Of a stretch of 32,931 nucleotides of DNA, positions 12,201-24,012 are shown piece after piece (position 1 is the stretch's first letter; the number at the start of each line of letters is the position of its first letter). The notes under the pieces were generated by a model. The model had not been told where the DNA came from, searched no databases, and saw only the letters and a list, made by a program, of their open reading frames with translations. The stretch comes from Flavobacteriia bacterium. Lineage in GTDB: Bacteria; Bacteroidota; Bacteroidia; Flavobacteriales_D; Crocinitomicaceae. The stretch is from NCBI GenBank assembly GCA_947453545.1, contig CANGHE010000006.1, positions 1 through 32,931 of the forward strand, in the 5' to 3' direction. Made by a program: the position numbers and the translations under genes.

Positions 12201-12258
12201 TAGTAATAATTGTAACTACTTTGATTAGTAGTTTGCTATTAATTTGATTTTGTTTTAT

Positions 12259-14400
12259 ATGATGATGAAAAATATATTTGTGATTCTATTTTTATTAGGT
12301 TGTTTTTATTCCTTTGGTCAAGAACCTAAAGAAATAAGAAAGGCTAATAAGTATTATAATAATGAAAATTATTGTGAGGCACCAAAATATACAATTGAAG
12401 CTTTTGATAAAGTCAATCCCAAAGGAAGAAAAGCAGTAGAGCGTAAAGGTGATATGGCATTTAAAACTGGAGAATGTTATCGTCATACTGAGGATTATAA
12501 AAATGCCTTAGATTGGTATCAGAAAGCATTAATTCTAAATTATCAAAAGATAAATCCAGAGGTTTTGTTTTATTATGCTGAAATGATTAGATATTTAGGT
12601 GATCATAAATTGGCTATAGAAAATTATAATGCTTATAAATTATTGTCTCCAAAAGATTCTAGAGCTGATGCAGGTATACAAGCTTGTAAAATTAGTGCAG
12701 ATTTTATTGCAAATAAAACTAGACATTTAGTGACAAATTTAGGAGTACTAAATAAAGAGGGATTTGATATGGCTCCTATTTTTGGAGATAAAAAGAAAAC
12801 TTCCATTGTTTTTAGTTCTGATAGGCCAAGTGCTAATAACGGAAGTCAAGACCCTAGAACATGTGGATCACATATGGATTTATGGATTACACAACAAGAT
12901 AAAAAGGGAAATTGGGGCGAACCTCAATTGTTAGTTGGAGAGAAAATTAACACTGAATATAATGAAGGTACATTGTGTTTTGATGGAAAATACAAAAAGC
13001 TTTTTTTTACTAGATGTCCTTCCGAAAAAAATAAAAATCTTGGTTGTGAAATCTGGCTTTCTGAAGTTAGAGGGAAAGAGTGGGCTGAGCCTCTTAAATT
13101 ACCACTTAAAAATGCGGATTCTGTATCGATTGGACATCCTTGCGTTACACTTGATGGAAATATGATCATTTTTGTTTCAGATATGCCTGGAGGACAGGGA
13201 GGTAAAGATTTATGGTACTCAACATATTCTAAAAAAGCAGATTTATGGTCACAACCAATTAATATGGGGCCTGAAATTAACACGGCTGGAGATGAGTTAT
13301 TTCCAACATTTAATTCATATGAAGATTTGTATTTTGCTAGTAATGGTCATCCTGGATTGGGAGGTTTAGATATTTTTAAAGCAAACAAAGTTGAGACAGC
13401 TGGTAAATATCAGTGGGAAAGCCCTAAAAACATTGGCTTGCCAAGAAATTCGGAAGCTAATGATTATGGTTTAATAGAAATTAATGAATCAGAGGGATAT
13501 TTTACATCTGAAAGAAAAGGAGGAGTAGGTGGTGTAAAACCTGATTTGTATAAATATCAATTACCTCCTAATGTTTATGATTTAAAAGTTATTGTAAGTA
13601 AACTAGGTCAAATAGATAAGAAAATTGGTAATATTAAAGTCGTTATTACGGGTTCTGACAGTTCTAAAATTGAAGGTTTTACTGACCGTAAAGGTGTTGT
13701 TTATTTTGAGACTAAGCCTAATGGGGAAAGGGTCATAAAAGAAAACACAGATTATTTAATTACAACGTATAAAGTTGGCTCAGAAAAAAACAAAAGTGAA
13801 ACACAATTCACTACTAGAGGATTACGTTTTGATCAAAATTTTATAATAGATGTACCTTTATTGATACCTGAAGAGAAAATCAGAATTCCAGAAGTACGCT
13901 ATGCTTTGGGTAAATGGGAAATATTACAAGATTCAACAATTAGTTCTAAGGATTCATTGAATTTTGTTTACGATGTGTTAATGAAGTATCCTAAAATGAT
14001 TTTAGAGTTAAGTTCACATACGGATTCACGCTCATCAGATGAATTTAACTTGAAGTTGTCTAATAACAGAGCAAAAGAGTGTGTTAAGTACCTTGTTGAA
14101 GAAAAAGGGATTGATGTGCGTAGATTAATACCTGTTGGTAAAGGAGAAAAAGAGCCAGTTAAATGGATTGATGAAAAAGGTAAGACTGTTGTATTAACAG
14201 AGAAGTACATCAATCAGTTTAAAGAAAAAGATCCTGTCAAATTTGAAAAATTACATTCCTTAAATCGTCGTACAGAAGGCTTTGTTAGAGGGATGGATTT
14301 TGATCCAGATTTAGCTCAGCAAAGATTATTAGAGCCAATGGACGATTTGAAAAAAGCCGTGAAGAAAGACAATAAAAAGAAGAAGAAGAAAAAAGTATAA
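12259..14400 (+). CDS. PorE-like OmpA family protein (TPR, PD40 propeller, CRD, OmpA)
   Basis: About 713 aa. Domains in order: signal peptide, TPR region (about 22-140), WD40/PD40-like beta-propeller (about 160-430, with repeats of the FSSDRP..GG.DLW type), a carboxypeptidase-regulatory-like beta-sandwich (about 445-530), and a C-terminal OmpA peptidoglycan-binding domain (ELSSHTDSRSSDEFNLKLSNNRA, about 580-605). This is the architecture of PorE, a peptidoglycan-tethering component of the type IX secretion system, but many Bacteroidota paralogues share it. The signal peptide contains LLGC, a poor lipobox, and also a normal SFGQ cleavage site, so lipidation is unclear. It ends in a Lys-rich tail. 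ATG at 12259 is preferred over an in-frame TTG at 12244; further ATGs lie at 12262 and 12265. Confidence 0.85.
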   Translation: MMMKNIFVILFLLGCFYSFGQEPKEIRKANKYYNNENYCEAPKYTIEAFDKVNPKGRKAVERKGDMAFKTGECYRHTEDYKNALDWYQKALILNYQKINPEVLFYYAEMIRYLGDHKLAIENYNAYKLLSPKDSRADAGIQACKISADFIANKTRHLVTNLGVLNKEGFDMAPIFGDKKKTSIVFSSDRPSANNGSQDPRTCGSHMDLWITQQDKKGNWGEPQLLVGEKINTEYNEGTLCFDGKYKKLFFTRCPSEKNKNLGCEIWLSEVRGKEWAEPLKLPLKNADSVSIGHPCVTLDGNMIIFVSDMPGGQGGKDLWYSTYSKKADLWSQPINMGPEINTAGDELFPTFNSYEDLYFASNGHPGLGGLDIFKANKVETAGKYQWESPKNIGLPRNSEANDYGLIEINESEGYFTSERKGGVGGVKPDLYKYQLPPNVYDLKVIVSKLGQIDKKIGNIKVVITGSDSSKIEGFTDRKGVVYFETKPNGERVIKENTDYLITTYKVGSEKNKSETQFTTRGLRFDQNFIIDVPLLIPEEKIRIPEVRYALGKWEILQDSTISSKDSLNFVYDVLMKYPKMILELSSHTDSRSSDEFNLKLSNNRAKECVKYLVEEKGIDVRRLIPVGKGEKEPVKWIDEKGKTVVLTEKYINQFKEKDPVKFEKLHSLNRRTEGFVRGMDFDPDLAQQRLLEPMDDLKKAVKKDNKKKKKKKV

Positions 14401-14443: not shown

Positions 14444-15517
14444 ATGCAATTAAAACCATCATCTACTTTATTTATGTTCTTCCTACACCTAGTGTTTTGG
14501 ATAGCATTTTATATGGTGCCTTTTATTGATCCAAGAGGGGTGCATCCAGTAAGTAGATTAAATGCTAGTTTCTTTTTTGATTTTCACTTATTAATTAATC
14601 ATCTTTTTTTTATTTTTTATTTTTATTTTAATAGTAATTATTTAATTCCTCAAATCCTTAGAAAAGGCGATAAGTGGCAATATGCCATCATTATCACATT
14701 GTTATTTCTAATTATATTAATATTCTCTTATTTATTATTTCCTTTAATTCGTTTACCACACGAGCATTTTTTGAAAAAACCACCTCATTTGCCTAGCAGA
14801 GAAGTTATGAGAATGAATCAAACAATTGCATTGTCCATACCATTGTTGTTCGTATTAATAGTTAGTGTAACATATAGATTATTATTAGACAAATTCTTGC
14901 AAGATAAAAAAGTGAAGGAAAAAGAAACGGAACATTTAAAAACTGAATTGTCGTTTTTACGCTCACAAATTAGTCCACATTTTATTTTTAATGCTTTAAA
15001 TAGTAGTATTATTTTAGTGAGAAAAAAATCGGATTTAGCAGAAAATAGTTTGTTGAAGTTAGCATCATTATTGAGGTATATGTTATATGAATCAGACGAA
15101 GACAAGGTTATGATTGAGAATGAAATTCAATATATTTCTGATTATATCGATTTACAAGAAATAAGATTTGGTAGTAGCGTTCATATCGAAAAGATTATAG
15201 ATGTGAATGAACATATTGAAGGATATATTGAACCTATGTTGTTAATTCCATTTATTGAAAATGCATTTAAACATGGGACTTCGGTATTGAATGCACCAGA
15301 GATAAAGATTTATATGAAAGAACATCAAGGTAAATTAATTCTAGAAGTTTCTAATAAATTTGTTAAAAAAGATGATCATAATGATAAGAATCATGGGATT
15401 GGTTTGGTCAATGTAGGGAGAAGATTAGCGCTATTATACCCAGGTAAACACGAATTACGAATCATGAGTGAGAATGATTGGTATTCTGTATATTTGTCTA
15501 TAGATATTGTAATATGA
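14444..15517 (+). CDS. LytS-type sensor histidine kinase (His_kinase family)
   Basis: 357 aa. The N-terminal half has four hydrophobic segments (about 8-26, 43-65, 80-102 and 127-147) and no obvious extracellular sensor domain. A short coiled coil (150-172) follows, then the phosphoacceptor box QISPHFIFNALNS with His179, the N-box IPFIENAFKHG with Asn273, and the G-box NHGIGLVNVGRRL. This is the LytS/YehU class that pairs with LytTR regulators. The stop overlaps the regulator start (ATGA, 15514-15517), so the two are translationally coupled. The signal is unknown; with so little exposed sequence it may sense the membrane or a membrane partner. It lies just upstream of the PqqD/ATP-grasp block on the same strand. 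Confidence 0.93.
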   Translation: MQLKPSSTLFMFFLHLVFWIAFYMVPFIDPRGVHPVSRLNASFFFDFHLLINHLFFIFYFYFNSNYLIPQILRKGDKWQYAIIITLLFLIILIFSYLLFPLIRLPHEHFLKKPPHLPSREVMRMNQTIALSIPLLFVLIVSVTYRLLLDKFLQDKKVKEKETEHLKTELSFLRSQISPHFIFNALNSSIILVRKKSDLAENSLLKLASLLRYMLYESDEDKVMIENEIQYISDYIDLQEIRFGSSVHIEKIIDVNEHIEGYIEPMLLIPFIENAFKHGTSVLNAPEIKIYMKEHQGKLILEVSNKFVKKDDHNDKNHGIGLVNVGRRLALLYPGKHELRIMSENDWYSVYLSIDIVI

Positions 15518-16242
15518 TTCGATGTATTTGTATAGATGACGAGCCGTTAGCGCTAGAAATGATGGGAGATTTCATTCGAAAAGTTCCGTTTTTGCAGTTA
15601 GTTACTTCATGTAAAAATGCACTAGAAGCATATGATATTTTAGACGAAGAAACTATTGATTTGATTTTTGTAGATGTTGAAATGCCTGAAATTAATGGAA
15701 TTCAATTTGTTCAATCGCTTAAGCAAAAACCATATATCATATTTTCTACTGCTTACAAAAAATATGCGCTCGAAGGATTTGAATTAGATGTAATAGACTA
15801 TCTTGTTAAACCCTTTTCGTTTGATCGTTTTTATAAAAGTGTTACAAAAGTCAAAGAAGCACATACCTTGATCAATAGTTCAACGCCATCCGTACTTAGA
15901 CAACTCCCTCCCGATTACATTTTTGTAAATTCTGACTATAGTTTGGTGAAAGTCAATATTCCTGAAATTGCTTACATTGAAGGTCTTAAAGATTATATTA
16001 AAATATATTTGTCAAACGTTTCTAAACCAATTGTTACTCGTATGAGTATGAAATCGATCGAAGAACGTTTAGAATTATTAGGTTTTAAGCGAGTTCATAA
16101 ATCTTTCATCGTTAATTTAGGTAAAATTACATCTATAAAAAAGACGAGGTTAGTAGTTGAAGAAACAGAACTATTTATTGGAGACAACTATAAGTCCCCT
16201 TTATATAAAGCGTTAGGTTTGGATGTATCTGAGGATGCATAA
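15514..16242 (+). CDS. LytTR-family response regulator
   Basis: 242 aa. The receiver domain (1-115) has the acidic pair D8-D9, the phosphorylated D54 in LIFVDVEMPEINGIQF, the Thr-like switch position in FSTAYKKYA, and the conserved Lys in DYLVKPFSF. A LytTR DNA-binding domain follows (about 130-237: VNIPEIAYIEGLKDYIKIYL..MSMKSIEERLELLGFKRVHKSFIVNLGKI). The start is ATG at 15514, inside the stop of the kinase gene; an in-frame upstream start at 15478 would only add 12 residues lying within the kinase frame. It is probably the output partner of the upstream kinase. The nearest downstream candidate target is the block beginning at 16371, which is preceded by a strong dyad. Confidence 0.94.
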   Translation: MIRCICIDDEPLALEMMGDFIRKVPFLQLVTSCKNALEAYDILDEETIDLIFVDVEMPEINGIQFVQSLKQKPYIIFSTAYKKYALEGFELDVIDYLVKPFSFDRFYKSVTKVKEAHTLINSSTPSVLRQLPPDYIFVNSDYSLVKVNIPEIAYIEGLKDYIKIYLSNVSKPIVTRMSMKSIEERLELLGFKRVHKSFIVNLGKITSIKKTRLVVEETELFIGDNYKSPLYKALGLDVSEDA

Positions 16243-17763: not shown

Positions 17764-19128
17764 ATGAAAACTGAAAAATTAAAATACGAACGTCCTGCTA
17801 TTCGCAAAATGAATACTGGGTTAATGAACAAATTCGGTACAAGAACTGAATATGCTCCTTTTACACACATTGATGGTGTTTCTGTGAAAGAGTTAATCAA
17901 TAAATATGGATCTCCATGTTTCGTTATCTCTGAAAGAACAATTCGTAAAACCTATCAAAATGCGGTAAGAGCTTTTAAAACGCGTTACCCTAAAGTACAA
18001 TTTGCGTGGAGTTATAAAACGAATTACATCGATGCTGTGTGTAATGTGTTTCACCAAGAAGGTTCATGGGCAGAGGTAGTTTCAATTTTTGAGTACACTA
18101 AAGCGATTCAAAATGGTGTTCCAGGAAATAAAATTATTTTTAATGGTCCAGAAAAAACGAAAGCAGATTTACAAGTGGCATTAGAAAACAATTCATATAT
18201 CCATATAGACCACTTTGATGAATTATATGATTTGATCGAATTGACACAAGAATTGAAAAAAACAGCTAAAGTTGCAATTCGAGTGAACATGGATACGGGT
18301 GTTTATCCAATGTGGGACCGTTTTGGATTCAACTATGAGTCTGGTCAAGCATGGAACGCAATCAATAAAATCATGGCTTCTGAGTATTTAGAAATGGTTG
18401 GTTTACACTGTCATATCGGAACGTTTATGTTAGATACAAATGCATATGCAATTGCTGCTGCAAAACTTTCTGATCTTGCTGTAAATATTAAATATGTATT
18501 TAACAAAACTATTCAATACCTAGATTTAGGTGGAGGTTTCCCTTCTGCTAACACTTTAAGAGGAGCTTATTTACCTGGACCAGATATGATTCCTTCCATT
18601 GACGAATTCGCTGAAGTTATCACGAATACGATCCTAAATTACGGGTTCAAAAAAGAAGATTTACCGTTATTGATCTTAGAAACTGGTCGTGCAATGATTG
18701 ATGATGCAGGTTATTTATTAGGTAGTGTAATTGCAAACAAACGTTTGTCAGATGGAAGAAGAGCTACCATTATGGATTTTGGTGTAAATATTTTATTCAC
18801 AGCATTCTGGTATGAGCATAAAATTACTCCTGCGCAAGAATTCTCTTCTCATACAGAAGATATGGTGTTATACGGACCATTATGTATGAATATTGATGTT
18901 GTTAGATCAAGTGTTACTTTACCAGCTTTAAATCGTGGGGATCATGTTGTAGTTCATAAAGTAGGTGCATATAACATGACACAATGGATGCAATTTATCG
19001 CCATGAGACCTAAGGTGGTATTAATTGACACTAATGGTGAATCACATGTAATTCGTGAAAATGAGACTGTTAAGACTATTACAGATCCAGAAAAAATGCC
19101 AGAACATTTAAAAACGTTTAATTTATAA
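17764..19128 (+). CDS. PLP-dependent group IV decarboxylase (DAP/ornithine/arginine decarboxylase fold)
   Basis: 454 aa. A TIM barrel with the PLP-binding Lys85 in FAWSYKTNY, HCHIGT (215-220, the HxHIGS motif), DLGGGFP (254-260, phosphate-binding glycine loop) and LETGRAM (305-311, EPGR motif). The C-terminal beta domain carries YGPLCMNIDVV with Cys374 and Asp378, the second half of the shared active site, and Tyr403 in GAYNMTQWMQF. All catalytic residues therefore look intact. The layout is closest to diaminopimelate decarboxylase (LysA), but the C-terminus is extended (RENETVKTITDPEKMPEHLKTFNL) and the gene sits in a non-lysine operon, so the substrate is probably another D- or L-amino-acid centre. 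It is cytoplasmic. The start at MKTEKLKYERPAI leaves an N-terminal extension of about 35 residues before the barrel. Confidence 0.88.
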   Translation: MKTEKLKYERPAIRKMNTGLMNKFGTRTEYAPFTHIDGVSVKELINKYGSPCFVISERTIRKTYQNAVRAFKTRYPKVQFAWSYKTNYIDAVCNVFHQEGSWAEVVSIFEYTKAIQNGVPGNKIIFNGPEKTKADLQVALENNSYIHIDHFDELYDLIELTQELKKTAKVAIRVNMDTGVYPMWDRFGFNYESGQAWNAINKIMASEYLEMVGLHCHIGTFMLDTNAYAIAAAKLSDLAVNIKYVFNKTIQYLDLGGGFPSANTLRGAYLPGPDMIPSIDEFAEVITNTILNYGFKKEDLPLLILETGRAMIDDAGYLLGSVIANKRLSDGRRATIMDFGVNILFTAFWYEHKITPAQEFSSHTEDMVLYGPLCMNIDVVRSSVTLPALNRGDHVVVHKVGAYNMTQWMQFIAMRPKVVLIDTNGESHVIRENETVKTITDPEKMPEHLKTFNL

Positions 19129-19137
19129 TATTGACGA

Positions 19138-21360
19138 ATGAATAATTGGCTTGCTATAGCTAAAAAATGGTTACTGTATAGCTTTGACACGATTGTCAAT
19201 AGCTATGCAGTAGTCTTTTTTTCAAATAACATTTGGTTCGGACTCTTATTGCTTTTGGCATCTTTTGTGGATCCTTTAGCTGGTGTATGCGGACTCATCG
19301 GTGTGATCGCTGCAAATGTATTTTCAAGAGTAATCGGATTAAACAAAGAATTCATTCGAAAAGGTTATCATGGTTATGATGCAATGCTTGTTTCCAGCGC
19401 TATAGCTCACTTTTATTCATTTAATCAGACTGTATTATTAGTGATCATTTGTGTAGGGATTTTTTCTACATTAATATCGTTTTTAGTTCATGGGATATTA
19501 CATAAATATAATTTACCCACGTTAAGTTTTCCTTTTTTAATTTCTATTTGGTTAGTTTTCAGTGCATTTCCTTCAATGCATACGATGCAAATTCATCCTG
19601 AACTCATTTATTCGTTGAATGAAAAACATAAAGCGACTGGTTTTACAATAACACATTGGTTGGAATTAATAGATAATATTGAAAGTCAATTGATTTCTTT
19701 TCCAAAAATTGTTTCGGTTTACTTCAAATCGCTCGCATCACTGTTTTTTCAATCTAACATACTTGCTGGATTATTAATCGCAATAGGTCTATTAATCTAT
19801 TCCAGAATTGCTTTTAGTCTATCGATACTTGGTTTTGTATCAGCTTATTTTTTCTATCCGATACTCGGAGGAGATGTAGCTGATTTTTACGAGAAATTTA
19901 TTGGTTTAAATTTTATTTTTCTGGCCATTGCAATTGGAGGAATCTATCTAATTCCAAGTCTCGCTAGTTATTTAATGAGCGTGATTTTAACACCTTTATT
20001 AATTATTGTCTTATTTGGTCTAAATCGAATATTATTTATGATTGGTTTAGCTCCTTATTCGTTGCCTTTTACATTGATTACAATCATGTTTTTGTATTTG
20101 TTAAATTTCAGAGTAACGATTAAGTTTTTACACCGTGTAATTCATCAGGAATTCAGTCCAGAAAAAAATTTATATAATTTTTTAAATGCAAATCACCGAA
20201 CACGTTTATTTAATTATTTTCCAATTCATGTACCTTTTTGGGGGGAGTGGATGGTTTCTCAAGCTCATGATGGTAAAATTACTCATATAGGAGAATGGAG
20301 TAAGGCATTAGACTTTATTATATTAGATCATGAAATGAAGTCGTATCAAAATCCTGGACTTGTCGTAGATGATTTTTATTGTTTTAATAAACCAGTCGTG
20401 GCATGTGCTGATGGTTACGTTGCAGCTATTTCAGATAATATTGAAGATAATGTTATTAATGGCAATAATACACTTCAAAACTGGGGTAATTCAATGGTTA
20501 TTTTTCATGCCGATGGATTGTATAGCCAGGTAAGTCACTTAAAAATGGGTTCTTTTAAATATGCTGTAGGTGATTTTGTGAAAAAAGGAGAAATTATAGC
20601 ATATTGTGGAAATTCAGGTCGATCACCAGAACCTCATATTCATTTTCAATTACAAGCTTCACCAATAATTGGGGCAAAAACACTTGATTTTCCTTTAGCA
20701 TACTATTTAAAAAGAACTTCTGTAGGTTTTGAATTGAAAACATTCTCTAAACCAAAAGATGGGGAATTTATTCAAGCTGTAGAAGGCAATCCTTTATTAA
20801 AATCAGCATTTGAATTTAATCCTGGATCAACTTATAATTGGAAAATAAATGAAAATGGAAAAGATACTCAAAATCAAAATTGGGAAGTTTTCACTGATAG
20901 TATAAATAATTCATATATCTATTGTCATACAACAAAAGCCATAGCATACTTTTATAATGATGGTAATATGCTTGTTTTTACAAGTTTTTATGGTACCAAA
21001 AAATCCTTATTATATCATTTTTATTTAGCACATTATAAATTAGTGTTAGGTTTTTATCAAAATCTGGAAATCGAAGAGAACTATCCAGTCGCTACAATTT
21101 TTTTAAAAGTGTTGAATATAATACAAGATTTTATTGCTCCATTTTACCGTTTTGTAAATTCTTCATTTAAAGTGAAATATACATATATAGATGATGTTAA
21201 CATTACGTCACAAATAACATTAACATCTTCTTCAGAAATTAAAGTAATGGGGTTTAAATCAAAAGCGTTTCAGTATACTACTCATTTGAAATTGAATAAA
21301 TTAGATGAGTTTATAGTTGAAACTTCTAAAACAAAAATTAGTGCATCATGCGTAAAATAA
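19138..21360 (+). CDS. Urea-transporter domain fused to an M23 metallopeptidase domain
   Basis: 740 aa. Residues about 20-330 are a urea-transporter-like membrane domain with roughly ten hydrophobic segments. The paired pore motifs of the two half-repeats can be seen as LPTLSFPFLISIWL (126-139) and APYSLPFTLITIM (305-317), together with RKGYHGYDAMLV (74-85). Residues about 370-525 are an M23 (LytM/lysostaphin type) domain with His383 and Asp392 in THIGEWSKALDF, PVVACADGYVAAI, His467 in VSHL, and the H500-I-H502 pair in EPHIHFQ, so the zinc site looks intact. Residues about 540-740 are of unknown function. M23 enzymes cut peptidoglycan cross-bridges in the periplasm. It starts nine bases after the decarboxylase gene and overlaps the next by 13 bases, so it is part of the operon. 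Confidence 0.85.
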   Translation: MNNWLAIAKKWLLYSFDTIVNSYAVVFFSNNIWFGLLLLLASFVDPLAGVCGLIGVIAANVFSRVIGLNKEFIRKGYHGYDAMLVSSAIAHFYSFNQTVLLVIICVGIFSTLISFLVHGILHKYNLPTLSFPFLISIWLVFSAFPSMHTMQIHPELIYSLNEKHKATGFTITHWLELIDNIESQLISFPKIVSVYFKSLASLFFQSNILAGLLIAIGLLIYSRIAFSLSILGFVSAYFFYPILGGDVADFYEKFIGLNFIFLAIAIGGIYLIPSLASYLMSVILTPLLIIVLFGLNRILFMIGLAPYSLPFTLITIMFLYLLNFRVTIKFLHRVIHQEFSPEKNLYNFLNANHRTRLFNYFPIHVPFWGEWMVSQAHDGKITHIGEWSKALDFIILDHEMKSYQNPGLVVDDFYCFNKPVVACADGYVAAISDNIEDNVINGNNTLQNWGNSMVIFHADGLYSQVSHLKMGSFKYAVGDFVKKGEIIAYCGNSGRSPEPHIHFQLQASPIIGAKTLDFPLAYYLKRTSVGFELKTFSKPKDGEFIQAVEGNPLLKSAFEFNPGSTYNWKINENGKDTQNQNWEVFTDSINNSYIYCHTTKAIAYFYNDGNMLVFTSFYGTKKSLLYHFYLAHYKLVLGFYQNLEIEENYPVATIFLKVLNIIQDFIAPFYRFVNSSFKVKYTYIDDVNITSQITLTSSSEIKVMGFKSKAFQYTTHLKLNKLDEFIVETSKTKISASCVK

Positions 21361-22754
21361 GTGTCTTATATGTAGCGTTATTGTTATCTACTTTGTCATT
21401 AGCACAAAGTAACAGTAAATTAAAAGAATCCTATGTCGATAGTACTTCTTATGTGTATTTTATGAAAGGGCAACATCCAGAGTTAGTCGCGCTGACAAAA
21501 AACGCATTATTATCGGGTATTGATTCGTATTATCTTAGGGTTAGAATTGGTGTTTCTTATTTTAATAAAAATGAATTTTATCTTGCCGCAATTCACTTAA
21601 GAAAGGCAGTAGAATTTTATCCGTCAGATATATACGCAAAAGAATTTTTATTCTATTCTTATCTGTACATGGAAAATATGGAAGAAGCAAAATTAATTAT
21701 TGCTAAAATGCCATTTACTTACCAAGCGGGGTACCGAAAATTGATCAAATTACAAAAATCCGTAGTTTTTGAATCGGGTTATCAGACTACTAGTTATTCA
21801 AATAACCAAGATTCAGCCGTTTTTTTGGCGAAAGATGTTACTGATACATCTTTACATGGAAATGGAGTATATGCTGTATCTGATCGTATGAAGTCTATTC
21901 AATACATTCAAATCGGAGGTGGTTATCCGATTTCTAAAAGAATGAAAGGTTATTCAGGTCTTTCATTAGTTAGAAATAACCGTGAAGAGCATGTTTATTC
22001 AAAAGATTATATATGGGACAATACAAAATTAGTCTATACCCCAAAAATCAAAGACACTCTTCATACATATACATTATCTCAATATCAAGTCTACTCGGGG
22101 GTTACGATAACATTGCCTCAACATTTTAATATATTAGTTGGCGGACAATATATGTATTACGATCAAAATAAATTGTATGCGAAGTATAATGAAACGTCAT
22201 TCAACTATAGTTATAAAGACAGTACAACATCACGAAGTAATTTTGTGAGTAATGTTTCTTTAACAAAATCATTTGGAAAATTTATTCCAATGTTAAGCTT
22301 TGGAGTAAATCGTATCGATGCTTATACAATAAACCAATATAATGCTCAGTCGAGTTATTTACCATTAGGTAATTTTAATCTCGTTTTAACAGGTGGTTTG
22401 GCTTTGTCAAAAGATAATTCAGGATCTAGAAATGTATATTATATTAAATTAGGAGGTAAGATAACAAATAACTTGTGGTATGATACTTATTTTTATGCTG
22501 GAAACTTGAAGAATTTTACGGAGGGGAATGGGTATGTTGTTTATAATATTTCAGATAAAATCACAATGAAGTCAGGAGTCAACTTAACTTATTACTTGAA
22601 TCAAAAGTTGAATTTTGGCTTGCGATATGATTTGTTAAAACGTGAATCATTGTATGATCGCTATTTTACATCAAACGGAATTTCAAAAGTAAAATCATAT
22701 TCTGATAATTATTTAAATCATTCATTAATTTTTAATGTTTTATGGAAGTTTTAG
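21348..22754 (+). CDS. Outer-membrane beta-barrel protein with N-terminal TPR region (YaiO-like)
   Basis: 468 aa. Signal peptide MRKISVLYVALLLSTLSLAQ, then about 110 residues of TPR-type helices (YLRVRIGVSYFNKNEFYLAAIHLRKAVEFYPSDIYAKEFLFYSYLYMENMEEAKLII), then from about residue 170 alternating aromatic and polar beta strands (QYIQIGGGYPISKRMKGYSGLSLV, FNILVGGQYMYYD) ending in LIFNVLWKF with the terminal Phe expected of an outer-membrane barrel. The arrangement resembles the YaiO family. It overlaps the upstream fusion gene and the downstream TPR gene by 13 bases each, so all three should be made in step. It would place a pore or docking barrel over the inner-membrane transporter and peptidase; this is inference. 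Confidence 0.78.
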   Translation: MRKISVLYVALLLSTLSLAQSNSKLKESYVDSTSYVYFMKGQHPELVALTKNALLSGIDSYYLRVRIGVSYFNKNEFYLAAIHLRKAVEFYPSDIYAKEFLFYSYLYMENMEEAKLIIAKMPFTYQAGYRKLIKLQKSVVFESGYQTTSYSNNQDSAVFLAKDVTDTSLHGNGVYAVSDRMKSIQYIQIGGGYPISKRMKGYSGLSLVRNNREEHVYSKDYIWDNTKLVYTPKIKDTLHTYTLSQYQVYSGVTITLPQHFNILVGGQYMYYDQNKLYAKYNETSFNYSYKDSTTSRSNFVSNVSLTKSFGKFIPMLSFGVNRIDAYTINQYNAQSSYLPLGNFNLVLTGGLALSKDNSGSRNVYYIKLGGKITNNLWYDTYFYAGNLKNFTEGNGYVVYNISDKITMKSGVNLTYYLNQKLNFGLRYDLLKRESLYDRYFTSNGISKVKSYSDNYLNHSLIFNVLWKF

Positions 22755-23362
22755 GAAAAAAAAGTGTCATAATATTAACATTTATTTTCATAGCATTCAG
22801 TCTATATTCACAATCAGATAATGCTATTCGAGATGCATTAAAAAAAAGTTATGATTCCGAATATCAGTTGAAATATCAGAAATCAATGGAAGATTTAATG
22901 GGAGTGTATGAGCCTACTTCCTATGAGTTGAATTTGAGGTTGGGTTGGTTAGCTTATAAAGCGGGTAAGTACACTGAATCTATTAGTTATTATAAAAAAT
23001 CTATTGCCAAAATGCCCTTAAGTATTGAAGCTAAATTAGGGGTTGTTTACCCACTAGGAGCATTGGAAAAATGGGATCAGGTTGTTGATAATTATTTAGC
23101 GATAGTTAAAATTGATACATATAACGCAACTGCAAATTATCGACTTGCTTTGATTTATTACAACAGAGGTGATTATGGTAATTCTTGGAAGTACATCCAA
23201 AAATATATCAATTTGTATCCTTTCGATTATGATGGTAATAGTTTGGCAGGTTGGATTAAATATAATGTAGGTAAAAAAGAGGAAGCATATGTTTTTTTTA
23301 AGAAAGCTATAATGGTAAACCCTTATGATACAAGCTTTAATAAAGTGCTAGGAGTAAAATAA
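22742..23362 (+). CDS. Periplasmic TPR protein, copy 1
   Basis: 206 aa. An N-terminal signal peptide (GKKSVIILTFIFIAFSLYSQ) and about five TPR motifs (e.g. LRLGWLAYKAGKYTESISYYKKSIAKMP, NYRLALIYYNRGDYGNSWKYIQKYINLYP, LAGWIKYNVGKKEEAYVFFKKAIMVNP). It is a clear paralogue of the next gene: both share the start (A/L)R.A.K.SY..EY.LKY, the central EKWD.V...Y.A...ID....A.NY/FRLA, and the YPF(D/N)(Y/F)DG..LAGWIKYN segment. TPR proteins dock partners; here probably the barrel protein encoded just upstream, whose gene it overlaps by 13 bases. No enzymatic motif is present. Confidence 0.83.
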   Translation: MEVLGKKSVIILTFIFIAFSLYSQSDNAIRDALKKSYDSEYQLKYQKSMEDLMGVYEPTSYELNLRLGWLAYKAGKYTESISYYKKSIAKMPLSIEAKLGVVYPLGALEKWDQVVDNYLAIVKIDTYNATANYRLALIYYNRGDYGNSWKYIQKYINLYPFDYDGNSLAGWIKYNVGKKEEAYVFFKKAIMVNPYDTSFNKVLGVK

Positions 23363-23394: not shown

Positions 23395-24012
23395 ATGAAA
23401 AATGGAGTAAAAAAAATCGCAACAGTAGGTTTGTTTTCATTGGTTACAATTTTCTCATTCTCACAAAATGAAGCTGAATTGCGAAATGCATTCAAGCAAA
23501 GTTATGTTGATGAATATAATTTAAAATATGCTAAAGCTATTGAGGCACTGACCCCATATGCCAGTCTAAAAAGATATGAAATTCATGTTCGAATGGCTTG
23601 GCTATACTATTGTAATGCAAAATTTAGTGATGCAGCGGTGCATTATAAAAAAGCAGTAGAACTTTCGCCTAAAAGTTTAGAGGCAAGAATGGGGTATGTA
23701 TACACGCTAGCTTCTCAAGAAAAATGGGATTTAGTAATAGAACAATATAAAGCAGTTTTGGGGATAGACCCTACACATGCTGTTGCAAATTTTAATTTAG
23801 CTTCTATATACTTTAATCGCGCAGATTATAAATCGGCTTTACCTTATATCACTACATACATTAATTGTTACCCTTTTAATTTCGATGGTGTAAATTTAGC
23901 AGGTTGGATTAAGTATAATTTAGGAAGTAAAGATGAAGCTGTTTCTTATTTTAATAAAGCATTATTATTAGATCCAAGTTCAAAGTTATATGATTCTATA
24001 ATTAAAAGGTAA
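23395..24012 (+). CDS. Periplasmic TPR protein, copy 2 (paralogue of copy 1)
   Basis: 205 aa. A signal peptide (MKNGVKKIATVGLFSLVTIFSFSQ) is followed by TPR repeats (RMAWLYYCNAKFSDAAVHYKKAVELSP, NFNLASIYFNRADYKSALPYITTYINCYP, LAGWIKYNLGSKDEAVSYFNKALLLDP). Length and repeat order match copy 1, so the pair came from a tandem duplication that has since diverged. It is separated from copy 1 by 32 bases and is the last gene before the strong terminator at 24037. The function is presumably a protein-protein scaffold in the periplasm; the partner is unknown. Confidence 0.85.
   Translation: MKNGVKKIATVGLFSLVTIFSFSQNEAELRNAFKQSYVDEYNLKYAKAIEALTPYASLKRYEIHVRMAWLYYCNAKFSDAAVHYKKAVELSPKSLEARMGYVYTLASQEKWDLVIEQYKAVLGIDPTHAVANFNLASIYFNRADYKSALPYITTYINCYPFNFDGVNLAGWIKYNLGSKDEAVSYFNKALLLDPSSKLYDSIIKR

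Follow-up and report, generated by a model that had tools for sequence, protein, structure and literature searches.

A urea-transporter domain joined to an M23 peptidase in a Bacteroidota operon, a possible inner-membrane station of biosynthesis and export

The window, the whole analysed stretch of 32,931 nucleotides from a Flavobacteriia bacterium (Crocinitomicaceae), contains a gene joining a urea transporter (UT) domain, an M23 peptidase domain and a C-terminal domain (Ct), set among the genes of an operon (Table 1). The ORF is genuine, with an ATG at 19138, a stop ending at 21360 and 740 encoded amino acids (aa). Pfam matches were found for the UT family at residues 16–321 (E 7.7e-56) and for Peptidase_M23 at residues 417–506 (E 6.5e-14), and the closest solved sequences were dvUT and, separately, M23 enzymes. 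The AlphaFold model of the whole protein (35 sequences) had a mean pLDDT of 88.9 and a pTM of 0.77. Its residues 1–350 superposed on the UT structures 3k3f and 3k3g (Z 36.8–37.0, rmsd 3.4–3.6, 317 residues aligned), and residues ~350–525 on M23/LytM structures (Z 12–14.7). The sequence-only reading, that a UT domain and an M23 peptidase share one ORF, was thus borne out by Pfam, by the model and by 88 full-length homologues. All conservation counts (n = 88) cover only homologues that are 680 aa or longer. In the linker, E342 was present in 88/88.

Table 1 Features of the fusion gene and its operon in the window. Homologues were counted in 91 of the 107 loci L031–L137, those longer than 9 kb, some of which end at contig edges.
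Feature	Coordinates	Strand	Evidence	Loci with homologue
LytTR-type sensor kinase (HK) and response regulator (RR)	14444..16242	+		HK 14/91, RR 25/91
PqqD-like (RiPP recognition element type) protein, 81 aa	16371..16616	+	Pfam PF05402, E 2.7e-11	75/91
ATP-grasp ligase, 351 aa	16609..17664	+	profile match; co-occurrence with fusion	77/91
Fold-III PLP decarboxylase	17764..19128	+	profile match; closest solved relative 7kh2	80/91
UT-M23-Ct fusion gene	19138..21360	+	Pfam, AlphaFold model, full length kept in 88 sequences	
UT domain, residues 16–321, complete ten-helix fold and two pore helices	19183..20100	+	Pfam, model, superposition	
Linker, residues 322–360, basic, conserved P341-E342	20101..20217	+	homologue alignment	
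M23 (LytM-type) zinc peptidase domain, residues 361–528	20218..20721	+	Pfam, superposition, conservation	
C-terminal domain, LolA/YmcC-like open barrel (with reserve), residues 529–740	20722..21357	+	isolated model, structure comparison	
Exported beta-barrel-like protein, N-terminal TPR	21348..22754	+	signal sequence	75/91
Exported TPR protein a	22742..23362	+	profile match	86/91
Exported TPR protein b, paralogue of a	23395..24012	+		best match in only 5/91

The C-terminal 200 residues had been left unassigned in the sequence-only reading. This still holds in that no convincing match was found among Pfam families or solved sequences, but the domain is predicted to fold on its own: modelled in isolation (75 sequences) it reached a pLDDT of 93.1. 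Foldseek listed LolA proteins first (best E 8.1e-4), with TM-scores of only ~0.3, and VIA-align ranked small outer-membrane porins (Z 9.4) and Bacteroidota lipoproteins (8.2–8.8) above LolA (6.0–7.7); because of this we call the predicted fold LolA-like with reserve. The domain occurred in 33/395 genomes, always within the fusion protein (E 1e-5).

The fusion is no local accident but recurs across Bacteroidota. It was present in 34 of the 395 genomes that we sampled from this phylum, to which the window belongs, counting one with a broken frame (G005). At least 577 stretches of a species-level genome collection encoded a relative of the query, and the 80 of these that were kept all came from Bacteroidota or Ignavibacteria groups. 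One genome (G255) had a 532-aa form that lacked the C-terminal domain. In G005 the UT and M23 parts are apparently split, the frames parting at a run of seven T (L031, 9000–9025), where sequencing error, mutation and slippage are indistinguishable. Since the run may be a sequencing error, we set this split aside as evidence of a signal-less M23 protein. A second apparent split (G124) lies at a contig end and repeats a gene found near the other end of that contig.

The usual gene order was PqqD-like protein, ATP-grasp ligase, PLP decarboxylase, UT-M23 fusion, outer-membrane barrel and TPR protein. In the window the last nucleotides of the fusion gene are shared with the barrel gene, whose product we take to be YaiO-like. 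The ATP-grasp ligase, searched for independently, was found in 34/395 genomes, the identical set to those with the fusion; its solved relatives were weak only. Against solved structures, the decarboxylase was nearest to the N-citrylornithine decarboxylase (E 2.1e-61), with BtrK further down, and 118 of its positions were at least 97% conserved (77 sequences). The C-terminus of the PqqD-like protein was variable across 74 sequences, on which ground we rejected a LysW-like carrier loaded at that end. Among the 1713 ORFs of the loci we found no conserved small ORF resembling a graspetide-style precursor (≥25 aa, blastp E 1e-3, present in ≥6 loci), a search that short or diverse precursors could escape. 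Padloc gave no match for six operon proteins.

The sensor kinase and response regulator are likely regulators of the operon, though not universal ones. A protein of ~200 aa with a heavy-metal-associated-like N-terminus (judged by eye) is encoded upstream of the PqqD-like gene in 12/90 loci (e.g., L082, 1379–2005) and is perhaps a further regulator. Beside the operon, at 12244–14400 of the window, lies an OmpA/PorE-like gene (NCBIfam T9SS_PorE, 395 bits, cut-off 600), with a homologue in 6/91 loci.

The combination of an ATP-grasp enzyme, a fold-III PLP decarboxylase and a small protein is the logic of butirosin side-chain synthesis, where BtrJ is the ATP-grasp enzyme, BtrI the carrier and BtrK the decarboxylase; BtrK also came up as a solved relative of the operon decarboxylase. 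The operon differs in having a PqqD-like protein in place of the acyl carrier, in a decarboxylase closer to N-citrylornithine decarboxylase, and in the added UT-M23 and outer-membrane parts. Literature search listings showed no description of either the UT-M23 fusion or the operon; urea, M23 and decarboxylase were all absent from the searched passages of PMC8939145.

UT-B has ten helices with intracellular N- and C-termini, according to passages of PMC3869693. Such a fold would place the M23 domain in the cytoplasm, a conflict raised by the sequence-only reading, which considered three ways out: an inverted membrane domain, an odd helix count, or a peptidase with some other target. The odd helix count found no support; the other two are both possible. 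The UT domain is canonical and complete, with ten helices and no extra one, and the AlphaFold model has no membrane helix past residue 322. Hydropathy (KD19) exceeded 1.6 beyond residue 326 in only 2/88 homologues, near residues 656–659 within the folded C-terminal domain. An eleventh helix, with which the conflict would vanish, was therefore found neither in the model and superposition nor by hydropathy in the 88 homologues. As the UT fold is complete and no membrane helix follows, the M23 domain and the N-terminus must share one side of the membrane, and the conflict stands.

Positive charges gave an ambiguous picture. A net excess of K + R on the inner side was seen in 14/18 stand-alone UTs, whereas in the fused family the difference, inside minus outside, was above zero in 33 and below zero in 36 of 88. 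The fused family is charge-balanced because basic residues have shifted into loops that are nominally outside, both tails having kept their basic character (2.62 K + R in the first 14 residues of the C-tail and 1.56 in the N-tail, not different from the 18 stand-alone UTs). For the internal loops the difference was −4.70 in fused vs −1.61 in stand-alone UTs; the shift was marked in T1–T2 (p 2.8e-7) and T2b–T3b (p 5.2e-9), values computed on sequences that are not independent. We rejected positive-inside counting as the decider, given the even split in the fused family and a dvUT score that runs against the known orientation of its family. Fused UTs carry basic residues at 26–33 and 220–224, in two nominally outer loops, with S222-R223 invariant in 88/88; these could serve an anionic solute instead of marking orientation.

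The amino acid composition of the M23 and C-terminal domains resembled that of cytosolic proteins, with a median P(exported) of 0.30. The M23 domains of 20 paralogues scored 0.51, the two operon enzymes 0.28 and 0.20, and the exported operon proteins 0.62 and 0.72. This test is weak: the same score bin holds 20% of the exported and 35% of the cytosolic training proteins, a likelihood ratio of only ~1.7, and the related sequences are not independent of one another. Scattered cysteines amounted to 0.54 per 100 aa, vs 0.26–0.28 in the exported operon proteins.

Together, the family topology, the basic tails, the cytosol-like composition and the cysteine content speak for a peptidase that faces inward, the last three of these only modestly, and we lean towards a cytoplasmic location of the M23 and LolA-like domains. 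The outer-loop basic charge, the exported M23 relatives and the C-terminal fold point outward. An alternative that we regard as possible, if on the doubtful side, is that the UT domain is inverted or of mixed orientation, with periplasmic M23 and LolA-like domains, and that the peptidase locally opens or remodels peptidoglycan for an envelope-spanning exporter made of the TPR and barrel proteins. Seven internal loops have K + R means that differ by at least 0.05 between the fused family and stand-alone UTs, and in all seven the change is the one that an inversion would bring. Of 20 M23 paralogues sampled from Bacteroidota, 17 begin with a hydrophobic signal- or lipoprotein-type stretch (KD15 ≥1.69). 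A LolA-like fold is usually periplasmic, and the TPR and barrel proteins encoded by the operon are exported. Since the UT fold is built from a pair of inverted repeats, a copy inserted upside down might still make a pore. Against inversion stand tails as basic as those of normal UTs and the cytosol-like composition and cysteine content, and we know of no inverted UT.

The family assignment suggests another possibility, an ordinary urea uptake channel carrying a passenger peptidase domain. Like UT/SLC14 proteins (dvUT 3k3f, UT-B, Yut), the fused protein has the complete two-repeat ten-helix fold (Z ~37, residues 1–350) and a strong family score. It differs in its added C-terminal M23 and LolA-like domains, its pore and its lack of a urease link. 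Besides the threonines, we take Q24 and E187 of dvUT to have filter roles. The two Thr of the UT pore are filter residues, according to passages of PMC12171576. For stand-alone UTs we used eight of ten proteins, leaving out one with an internal stop and one without a locus. The position of dvUT Glu187 held E or Q in 8/8 of these but in 0/88 fused proteins, and Thr130, kept in 8/8, was Ser in 82/88. The equivalent of Q24 (Q in 8/8) was kept in 59/88 and is V in the window protein, and that of T294 (T in 8/8) was Ser in 62/88 and Thr in 11/88. The urea-type filter (Q24, T130, E187, T294) was hence not found in the fused family. Compared with the urea transporter equivalog TIGR03441, the fusion scored 117.6 bits, with a cut-off of 274.6.

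UT domains occurred in 45/395 genomes, of which 34 had the fused form and 10 a stand-alone UT, the last being a weak match under the cut-off. Urease alpha (E <1e-50) was detected in 12/395 genomes, namely 1/34 with the fusion, on a contig other than that of the fusion, 6/10 with a stand-alone UT and 5/351 of the remainder. With urease rare beside the fused form and the filter altered (Glu187 lost in 88/88), the protein is probably not a urea uptake channel; the exact co-occurrence with an ATP-grasp ligase also speaks against that function, which we regard as improbable.

The M23 domain shares its fold and all five active-site residues with M23/LytM peptidases (DipM, Csd1–Csd2, LytM, lysostaphin), but has no signal peptide and is joined to a channel. 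H383, D392, H467, H500 and H502, described in the sequence-only reading as five intact zinc ligands, were invariant in 88/88 homologues, with no degenerate active site seen; by M23 enzyme precedent, however, we take only H383, D392 and H502 to be ligands and H467 and H500 to be catalytic histidines. EnvC and SpoIIQ LytM domains were among the structural matches, but with this invariance a non-catalytic binding or regulatory module, as in EnvC-type LytM domains, is very improbable. The step from H383 to D392 is nine residues in the fused M23 and four at the matching site of LytM; the loop length at H383 also differs in exported and anchored M23s.

From the intact ligands, the earlier reading had expected activity in the periplasm. 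This does not follow, as M23 relatives occur in haloarchaea. Haloarchaea have no peptidoglycan, and this M23 branch therefore need not cut cell wall. The haloarchaeal proteins are 36.6–39.4% identical to the M23 domain of the fusion, with hydrophobic segments preceding the domain. They belong to a wider set of plasmid-borne, membrane-anchored M23s (L198–L206; haloarchaea, Thermus, Thermomicrobium, Tropicibacter, Streptomyces), whose M23 domain is 29.6–39.4% identical and follows hydrophobic segments; most also have an R-rich linker with a P-x-PE-like motif before the domain. In these a short anchor replaces the UT domain, and they separate from the fused group in the M23 tree. The tree grouped fused, anchored and exported domains by kind and nothing beyond, with four rows covering less than half of the columns (partial domains extracted) and many deep forks open. 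On the haloarchaeal, Thermus and Thermomicrobium plasmids (L198–L204) the M23 peptidases have one to three hydrophobic segments upstream of the domain. On a Tropicibacter oceani plasmid (L205, 1–5441) the membrane M23 peptidase gene lies together with two radical SAM genes and one for a trypsin-like peptidase, an arrangement that looks like a modified-peptide cluster, and the Streptomyces relative lies near acyl carrier protein and 3-oxoacyl-ACP synthase genes; both settings are biosynthetic-looking.

One conserved chain thus unites a complete UT channel, an M23 domain whose active site is intact and a LolA-like domain. An ATP-grasp ligase always accompanies it, and a PqqD-like protein, a PLP decarboxylase and exported barrel and TPR proteins usually do. 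It is quite possible, and we tentatively propose, that the fusion acts as the inner-membrane station within a biosynthesis and export operon of Bacteroidota, rather than as a urea permease to which a stray cell-wall enzyme is attached. The ATP-grasp ligase and decarboxylase are expected to be cytosolic, export signals mark the TPR and barrel proteins, and the fusion protein would sit in between. The PqqD-like protein may recognise a peptide or carrier, and the ligase and decarboxylase would make a product of amide or amine type. By hydrolysing an amide bond, the M23 domain could trim or release the product or an intermediate, and a small product might leave through the remodelled UT pore toward the TPR and barrel proteins. 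In this specific form, with a cytoplasm-facing M23 domain on a urea channel retuned for a different small solute, the two together releasing and exporting the product of a PqqD-guided ATP-grasp/decarboxylase pathway, the proposal is rather unlikely to hold in full.

The occurrence of the operon in 34/395 sampled genomes of the phylum points to a product of the pathway. If the peptidase faces inward, it would be an M23 enzyme with a biosynthetic role away from peptidoglycan; if outward, the UT domain would sit upside down in the membrane and give a clear example of inversion in an inverted-repeat channel. Should the release-and-export reading be true, the fusion would represent a novel type of machine for biosynthesis and export that is widespread in the Bacteroidota.
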